64,000 nt of DNA from assembly GCF_009695585.1 (NCBI RefSeq), contig NZ_VUNR01000002.1, forward strand, positions 1 through 64,000, read 5' to 3'. Under the pieces are notes generated by a model, which saw nothing but the letters and a program-made list of their open reading frames with translations, was not told the origin of the DNA and made no database searches. The stretch's first letter is position 1; every line of letters begins with the position of its first letter. Source of the stretch: Anaerovibrio slackiae (GTDB taxonomy: Bacteria; Bacillota; Negativicutes; Selenomonadales; Selenomonadaceae). The translations under genes were made by a program, and so were the position numbers. Below, piece after piece: positions 53,301 through 54,121 of this stretch.

Positions 53301-53376
53301 TGGTGACCCACCGGAGACTCGAACTCCGAACCTGCTGATTAAGAGTCAGATGCTCTACCAATTGAGCTAGTGAGTC
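53301..53376 (-). tRNA. tRNA-Lys (anticodon CTT), copy 1
   Basis: A 76-nt tRNA on the minus strand with the CCA encoded. It starts GACTCAC and ends GTGGGTC before ACCA, giving a 7-bp acceptor stem. The D-loop (AGCTCAATTGGTAGAGC), T-arm (GTTCGAGTC) and anticodon loop CTCTTAA are clear. The anticodon is CTT, decoding AAG. It is identical to the second copy 118 bp away. The top pair of the anticodon stem is a T-C mismatch. Confidence 0.95.
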
Positions 53377-53418
53377 AATATTTTGGCGAACCGCCTATTC
53401 ACATCACGCGAGAAAAAA

Positions 53419-53494
53419 TGGTGACCCACCGGAGACTCGAACTCCGAACCTGCTGATTAAGAGTCAGATGCTCTACCAATTGAGCTAGTGAGTC
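53419..53494 (-). tRNA. tRNA-Lys (anticodon CTT), copy 2
   Basis: An exact duplicate of the tRNA at 53301-53376, again with encoded CCA. A 42-nt spacer separates the two. This copy is upstream in the direction of transcription. The tandem pair adjoins a truncated ugd fragment, so the locus may have been an integration site. Confidence 0.95.
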
Positions 53495-53590: not shown

Positions 53591-53745
53591 TCAATCCCTG
53601 CCAAACAGATCCCGGGTATATACCTTTTTAGCCACATCAGCCAGCTGGCTGTCATATCTGTTAGCAATAATCACCTGCGCCATGGACTTGAACTCAGCCA
53701 GGTTATTCACCACCCGGCTGCCAAAGAAATCCTTGAGTGCAGCCT
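53591..53745 (-). pseudogene. UDP-glucose 6-dehydrogenase, C-terminal fragment only
   Basis: The minus-strand frame reads [20 protein letters not shown] and then ends [24 protein letters not shown]. This is the C-terminal end of UDP-glucose/GDP-mannose dehydrogenases (Ugd type), where [10 protein letters not shown] is characteristic. Only about 50 residues remain of an expected 390-450. Upstream of codon ALKD the similarity stops and the sequence becomes the repeated hairpin at 53743-53797. No start codon or ribosome binding site serves the fragment, so it is a remnant. The 5' part was lost by deletion or by insertion followed by loss. Confidence 0.85.
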
Positions 53746-53797
53746 CGCTTCTTAGTGAGTGCGAGCGCAAGCGAAGCAGGAACTTAGAAGCGCGAGG
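53743..53797 (+). repeat. Hairpin repeat, copy A
   Basis: CCTCGCTTCTTAG opens and CTTAGAAGCGCGAGG closes a hairpin of about 55 nt. The outer stem is CCTCG/CGAGG, with a CG bulge, then CTT/AAG, then CTTAG opposite CTTAG (one T-T mismatch), and an inner GCGAGCGCAAGCGAAGC region. A second copy with matching layout lies at 63463-63519 on the other strand. Confidence 0.7.
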
Positions 53798-53800
53798 CAC

Positions 53801-53958
53801 GGGATAACAGAACCCTATTGACATGAATTAGTTTCGAGGATAAATCCTTGTATGCTAGGCGGAGGAGGAAGGCATGGTGGTTCCATGCCGACCGACAACA
53901 ACAACGCAGACAAGGATTTAGACCGAAAATAATCATGGATATAGGGTTCTGTTATCCC
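53801..53958. other. 158-nt nested inverted-repeat element (structured RNA or MITE-like)
   Basis: Outer arms GGGATAACAGAACCCTAT and ATAGGGTTCTGTTATCCC are a perfect 18-bp pair. Inside them ATGAATTAGTTTCG pairs with CGAAAATAATCAT, then TAAATCCTTGT (53841) with ACAAGGATTTA (53910), and at the tip GGCATGG-TGGTT-CCATGCC. Together they give a nearly continuous hairpin of about 50 pairs. No protein frame explains it. No target-site duplication is visible at the ends. A further IR, TTTTCGTG/CACGAAAA (53973-54015), follows before the YvrJ gene. Confidence 0.75.
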
Positions 53959-54040
53959 CCGAGCGAGAGCGTGTTTTCGTGGTTGCTGACATACCTGCGC
54001 TATAGGGCACGAAAATAAAAAGAAAGGAGCTATCACATTC

Positions 54041-54121
54041 ATGGACGAACACATTTTATCCGCCATTTCCACAGTGGGCTTCCCCATCGTTGTCTCCTGC
54101 TACCTGCTGGTAAAATTCTAA
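54041..54121 (+). CDS. YvrJ-family microprotein
   Basis: A 26-residue protein, MDEHILSAISTVGFPIVVSC followed by YLLVKF. The GFPIVVSxYLLV core is the signature of YvrJ-family small membrane proteins, seen in many Firmicutes and prophages. Those I know are usually about 40-50 residues, with a charged tail after LLV; here a stop follows immediately, so this may be a minimal or truncated form. AAAGGAG lies 11 nt before the ATG. It is followed by a strong terminator and is convergent with polC. Function unknown. Confidence 0.65.
   Translation: MDEHILSAISTVGFPIVVSCYLLVKF

Follow-up and report, generated by a model that had tools for sequence, protein, structure and literature searches.

Small repeats that are structured and have TA ends are a familiar feature of bacterial genomes (PMC2229807; PMC3446304, with bcr1-bcr18; PMC2267715). 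RUP, ERIC, NEMIS/Correia, YPAL and CIR (PMC2229807) and bcr1-bcr18 (PMC3446304) are 100-200 bp long, gene-free and intergenic, and their transcripts are predicted to form long stem-loops. Several bacterial MITEs possess TA ends and target duplications, and IS630-Spn1 is the presumed mobiliser of RUP (PMC2229807, PMC3446304). REP/REPIN repeats consist of units of 20-40 bp that bear a GTAG tag, and they are associated with an HUH partner, RAYT (PMC3733652, PMC3116915). As outlined in its source, MRSC-65-2 is a single long covarying stem with more than 20,000 examples in many phyla, dozens of copies per genome and a conserved UYCCGG repeat, described as a selfish structured nucleic acid, possibly DNA; the same study puts forward ~250 mobile or repeat candidates (PMC11109978).

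The window analysed here, a stretch of 64,000 nucleotides of Anaerovibrio slackiae, harbors an element, named hairpin B, that resembles each of these systems in part. Like bacterial MITEs, it is ~160 bp long, gene-free and intergenic, and folds as a long stem-loop. However, each of the known MITEs has been described from a single genus or group, whereas the core of hairpin B crosses phyla and its ends are not conserved; and in the carrier genomes searched, no insertion sequence with matching ends was found for hairpin B. It shares with REP/REPIN the dispersed extragenic palindromes, for which recognition as a folded single strand is probable in the REP case, but it is much longer (~160 bp) and many of its carriers are devoid of Y1_Tnp. 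By description, the closest system is MRSC-65-2, also a multi-copy long stem with strong covariation in diverse phyla; as far as the outline in its source goes, it differs in that UYCCGG occurs in 0 of 84 hairpin B cores, while hairpin B is built on a G-C/G.A ladder and bordered by short direct repeats. No description of the hairpin B family was found in the literature, the ~250 MRSC candidates being set apart by their descriptions only (PMC11109978), and hairpin B may already be among them. The kind of element is therefore already known from MRSC-65-2 and the MITEs, and the hairpin B family itself is a new member as judged from these descriptions.

Fold and parts of hairpin B

The 158 nucleotides of hairpin B are predicted to fold as a single long hairpin (MFE -81.5 kcal/mol, 58 pairs), the original prediction having counted about 50 pairs; 200 dinucleotide shuffles have a mean of -34.4 (z -12.8), and none of them is as low (0/200). 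The perfect 18-bp outer inverted repeat, the two further paired segments and the GGCATGG/CCATGCC hairpin that had been proposed are all present in this fold. The outer arms extend to 26 nt with an 88% match. The parts are the following:

53801..53958, + strand (the folding strand): hairpin B, a probable mobile hairpin element (fold z -12.8, 10 own-genome copies, covariation, G.T over A.C bias)
53801..53818, + strand: 5' arm of the outer helix, pairing with 53941-53958 and differing between copies with compensatory changes
53856..53870, + strand: 5' strand of the conserved ladder (AGGCGGAGGAGGA), single G-C pairs with G.A/A.A-type mismatches between them, including three near-invariant G-C pairs
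53871..53889, + strand: apical stem-loop, GGCATGG-loop-CCATGCC (fold; covariation in other genera)
53890..53909, + strand: 3' strand of the conserved ladder (GACCGACAACAACAACGCAG; GACGACAAC in most copies), from the copy and core alignments
53941..53958, + strand: 3' arm of the outer helix, partner of 53801-53818

The asymmetry of the supposedly single-stranded parts is confirmed, but these are not free single strands: below the 7-bp apical stem, the purine and ACAAC strands face each other as a ladder, in which single G-C pairs alternate with two-base mismatches of the G.A/A.A type. The functional-RNA character read into this asymmetry finds support in the conserved fold and the strand-specific covariation described below, both of which suit an RNA and a single-stranded DNA alike. 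Hairpin B was rightly considered non-coding, as the overlapping ORFs reach only 50-90 aa, a size expected by chance. A hidden peptide was also considered, since GGAGGAGG-N5-ATG resembles a start site, and was discarded: the downstream frame, inspected by eye, is not kept between genera.

Copies, spread and conserved core

A nucleotide search with hairpin B retrieved 10 copies in its own genome, with 92-100% identity, and reached other genera. In the alignment of the 10 copies, hardly any variation is seen in the inner ~120 nt, and the outer helix varies in both of its strands: GGGATAACAGAACCC/GGGTTCTGTTATCCC of the window becomes GGGATGACGAAACCC/GGGTTTCGTCATCCC in copy L010 and GGGATAACAAACCCC/GGGGTTTGTTATCCC in copy L014. 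In two other genomes, G017 and G033, hairpin B stands alone and its outer arms are unrelated in sequence yet fully paired. Of 380 genomes of the class, 119 have matches to a covariance model of the core (R1), and these belong to 37 of 102 genera; several genomes have at least 11 matches and close congeners none. Within a single genus, the copy number ranges from 0 to over 10.

A pattern scan of named genomes matched at least 116 stretches, reaching Clostridia, Actinomycetota and Planctomycetota. Among the matches listed are Sporomusa, Pelosinus, Propionispora, Anaerovibrio, Schwartzia, many Lachnospiraceae, Oscillospiraceae and Syntrophomonadaceae, as well as Planotetraspora, Microtetraspora, Kitasatospora, Frankia and one Planctomycetota MAG. 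The matches that were folded exhibit the identical ladder design, with long, near-perfect arms and complementary ends in all lineages read. IMG/VR viral contigs, phages and plasmids gave no match to hairpin B, which argues against a phage or plasmid origin. The covariance models of Rfam release 15 did not match either; the element had been put forward as a possible undescribed RNA, and this check sets aside the known families of that release.

Some loci carry additional hairpins. At L029 and L256, the main hairpin is preceded upstream by a divergent one built on the same plan (AGGCAGACGGAGGAGGCGC...GCCGACGATAACGAAGCC), which ends at CTAG immediately beside the normal copy. At L379, L380, L381 and L290, extra small hairpins are found within the apical loop, the 3' ladder strand or the 3' arm, the remaining fold being intact.

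The conserved core consists of the apical stem standing on the ladder of single G-C pairs and G.A/A.A mismatches. Among 10 diverse sequences, pairing is kept in 95.6% of the pair cells, with double changes at 14 of 27 pairs. Among 84 core sequences aligned by covariance model, 94.3% of the pair cells are paired, versus 65.8% in shuffles and 30-55% when the partner is slid by 1-3 columns, and compensatory double changes affect 25 of the 27 pairs. The latter alignment was fitted to the model and thus leans towards the structure; this is a minor concern in view of the effect size and of the 10-sequence alignment, which was made without such fitting. Three G-C pairs of the ladder are near-invariant (81-82 of 83 sequences). 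In an arm alignment giving no credit to wobble pairs, G.T combinations exceed A.C (422 vs 169), a bias on which 44 of 49 informative assemblies agree (p 8e-9). This bias designates the GGAGGA strand, the + strand in the window, as the folding strand, either as RNA or as single-stranded DNA. Compensatory changes keep this strand foldable from end to end.

Ordinary MITEs keep their ends and lose their interior. Here the outer arms differ wholly in sequence between lineages, only their complementarity being kept. Since the ends differ, core-less forms have spread (see below) and the core is nevertheless kept, the core must be preserved across phyla by something other than transposition. A putative conserved binding partner of the folded strand would be our guess.

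The host repeat RepA and the window locus

All 10 own-genome copies of hairpin B are located inside a second repeat, RepA. This repeat is ~400 bp long, has its own large nested fold and ends in AAATTTCAGTTT/AAACTGAAATTT; at least 38 full-length copies are found in the own genome (examples are L044-L073), 96-100% identical over a 184-nt core, and most of them are without hairpin B. Comparison of RepA with and without hairpin B places the latter at the junction following the RepA inner hairpin: the empty junction reads GGCACAA-CTAG-GAGCGAG, the filled one GGCACAA-AGGGATAA...TTATCCCTAG-AGCGAG. RepA also contains a GC-GNRA-GC mini-hairpin whose loop is GAGA, GCGA or GAAA. It appears to be a second, active, structured mobile element.

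Several arrangements of RepA were observed. It is frequently present as two inverted copies (loci L046, L051, L053, L056, L060, L064, L073 and L082), with the left ends joined around a short spacer and the right ends outermost. At L087, L098 (near 1100-1540, - strand) and L103 (1000-1540), RepA-like outer frames surround quite different interiors, as if such frames carried exchangeable structured cargo. In G024, from another genus of the family, about 10 RepA-like cores (L025, L031, L037 and L041 among them) possess entirely different outer arms.

The surroundings of hairpin B in the window comprise:

53301..53494, - strand: two neighbouring, unrelated tRNA-Lys(CTT) genes, identical over 79 nt; same pair in congener G014
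53591..53729, - strand: 3' remnant of ugd, cut at the start of the RepA remnant (uninterrupted ugd end in G006 and G014)
53721..54018, + strand: RepA remnant with nested hairpin B, its 5' outer arm missing, 92% identical to the complete copy L020
53742..53798, + strand: RepA inner hairpin, formerly 'hairpin repeat A' (copy alignments)
53963..53970, + strand: RepA mini-hairpin GC-GAGA-GC, with a GNRA loop (GCGA or GAAA in other copies)
54041..54121, + strand: YvrJ microprotein gene, 26 aa, a neighbour only (PF12841, E 7.8e-8)

The neighbours named in the original prediction are all found: a truncated ugd and twin tRNA-Lys genes nearby, hairpin repeat A upstream and the YvrJ gene downstream. A 77-aa ORF (53591-53824, - strand) holds the last ~45 codons of ugd and ends ...YTRDLFGRD, as in the uninterrupted ugd of two congeners; the Pfam search did not flag this short piece. 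The gene is intact in G006, and in G014 its end is uninterrupted up to the contig edge. Locus L020, also in G014, is the complete counterpart of the window RepA subtype and retains the 5' outer arm that the window lacks. The passage from ugd to RepA in the window is a short A-rich stretch (CCAAAGAAA) nearly common to both. The ugd cut looks like a deletion into RepA at this short homology rather than an insertion of hairpin B; judging from these alignments, the deletion would have removed the start of ugd together with the 5' part of RepA. What the window retains is a decayed RepA with hairpin B, joined to the end of ugd.

Two earlier ideas on this locus find no support. An integration scar at tRNA-Lys and ugd had been proposed; in G014, the same twin tRNA-Lys genes stand beside the uncut ugd end with the element absent, so that the tRNA duplication is older than, and unrelated to, hairpin B. 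The element had also been viewed as a possible regulatory leader of the YvrJ gene, but a YvrJ-like gene is found near only one of 153 copies examined, that of the window. To note, the 26 codons of this gene cover only the first half of the Pfam profile (positions 2-19 of 36) and are followed by a terminator-like hairpin.

Ends, movement and nature of the element

Direct repeats flank the element in several genomes. In G017, five copies at different sites show no sequence difference across the element and all lie between TTA/TTA or TAA/TAA repeats (5/5), and CTAG/CTAG flanks four of six copies in G123. In an Oscillospiraceae MAG with ends TACTGTTCTC, matching TNA triplets were read by eye in the flanks of ~8 of 11 copies. 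Some lineages have 3-bp repeats of the TWA/TNA type, others CTAG. Over 151 elements, direct repeats of at least 4 bp occur in 47%, versus 17% for mismatched left and right flanks, boundary finding having failed for some copies and repeats being inexact in many. In the window genome, hairpin B is nested in RepA, which makes the exact target repeat unreadable there. The copies are intergenic, only 3 of the 151 lying inside a long ORF.

Core-less copies, in which GGAACTGTAGCGAAATAAACTAGAC is joined directly to CAGCAAGATGTC..., share one common internal junction at seven loci in two species (six in G017, one in G269), with TAA/TAA repeats at three or more of the seven. In the simplest reading, the core-less derivative arose once and then spread. 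On this reading, the ends are sufficient for movement. Solo element ends of ~20 bp, without a partner end, were observed in G017 (L364, L365, L375, L376).

A partner of hairpin B was sought on several lines. Six carrier genomes, searched with 18-20-bp end motifs and two transposase profiles, yielded no autonomous element whose ends match; an insertion sequence would escape this search if its similarity were limited to the first 8-10 bases of the ends. The end motif GGARCTGN5AAATAA, searched in four genomes, returned only element pairs or solo ends, and the G033/G123 ends gave no same-ended insertion sequence; such a partner was rejected. An autonomous version split at the core was also looked for, and no separated halves were found in 1.2 Mb of loci. 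IS5-family transposases (IS1031, ISL2 and IS5 groups) generate TNA (3 bp) or YTAR (4 bp) target duplications that resemble the repeats at the ends of hairpin B, but DUF4096 (IS5-type, PF13340) is absent in G017, G232 and G269, and DDE_Tnp_4 (PF13359) in eight genomes including these three key carriers, so that an IS5/ISL2 partner is less likely as far as these two profiles go. The ORF beside a solo end in G017 was tried as a transposase and discarded, the gene being nucleoside-deoxyribosyltransferase-like (named by eye). No gene family recurs beside the copies except common transporters and signalling proteins; a retron would be expected to have a reverse transcriptase next to it.

Hairpin B is probably a non-autonomous, MITE-like mobile hairpin of ~160 bp, gene-free and with a conserved structured payload. 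The MITE character, suggested at the outset, is supported in kind: the element is short and gene-free (158 bp), has terminal inverted repeats (18 bp perfect, with complementary ends in the lineages read), is dispersed in intergenic copies at unrelated sites (10 in the own genome, at least 11 in several others) and shows target-site duplications in other genomes (TTA/TAA, 5/5, in G017; CTAG in G123; 47% vs 17% overall). The ends would be recognised by a transposase resident in the genome, one that cuts TNA/CTAG targets with a short stagger and moves the element in trans, and different transposases may have served it in lineages with different ends. In the window genome, the junctions are consistent with an insertion at CTAG in RepA, after which hairpin B would have been carried along. 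The core would exert its effect once folded, as RNA or as single-stranded DNA, probably through a host factor of broad conservation to which it binds. Against this reading stands the conservation across phyla of the interior instead of the ends, for which a plain MITE offers no explanation. A tentative extension, which we hold to be possible but less likely than not, is a cross-phylum class of mobile elements whose conserved heart is the interior, an RNA or single-stranded DNA folded with a ladder of G-C pairs and G.A mismatches and binding a putative conserved host factor, and whose ends are exchanged according to the available transposase.

The deeply conserved core, the strand-specific covariation and the asymmetric internal loops would also suit a family of structured RNA genes beneficial to the host, sRNA or cis-regulatory, that is multi-copy by chance. 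Such a family is unlikely, as it hardly agrees with a copy number ranging from 0 to more than 10 in one genus, with inconsistent neighbour genes, with an orientation to tandem genes that is not significantly biased (37 same vs 26 opposite, p 0.21) or with the short direct repeats at the ends.

The restriction of the structure to one strand would also fit mobilisation as folded single-stranded DNA by an HUH/Y1 transposase, in the manner of REP with RAYT, and Y1_Tnp is indeed found in 74 of 119 carriers versus 106 of 261 non-carriers, a weak enrichment (odds ratio 2.4) not corrected for ancestry. However, 24 of 56 element-rich genomes, including the nearly complete G269, G238, G021 and G335, have no Y1_Tnp match, so that a Y1 partner was rejected; direct repeats at the ends are unexpected for Y1 transposition and no GTAG tag was noticed, which makes this route very improbable. 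Template-switch correction during replication can copy changes from arm to arm. The arms, all long and near-perfect, might thus belong to a palindrome kept perfect in this way, its covariation being mutational and unselected, but the asymmetric ladder and the bulges are conserved across phyla instead of being perfected, and symmetric correction would not yield the preference for G.T over A.C on one strand seen in 44 of 49 assemblies. We give this explanation the least credence of all.

Returning to the mobile hairpin, its free ends, fixed folded core and spreading core-less copies separate the movement signal from the selected part, and this separation allows a direct test of what cargo a mobile hairpin carries. 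Hairpin B is an abundant structured element of gut and rumen Bacillota and also of Actinomycetota. As it is absent from Rfam, annotation overlooks it, and both assembly and the calling of sRNAs may be misled by it.
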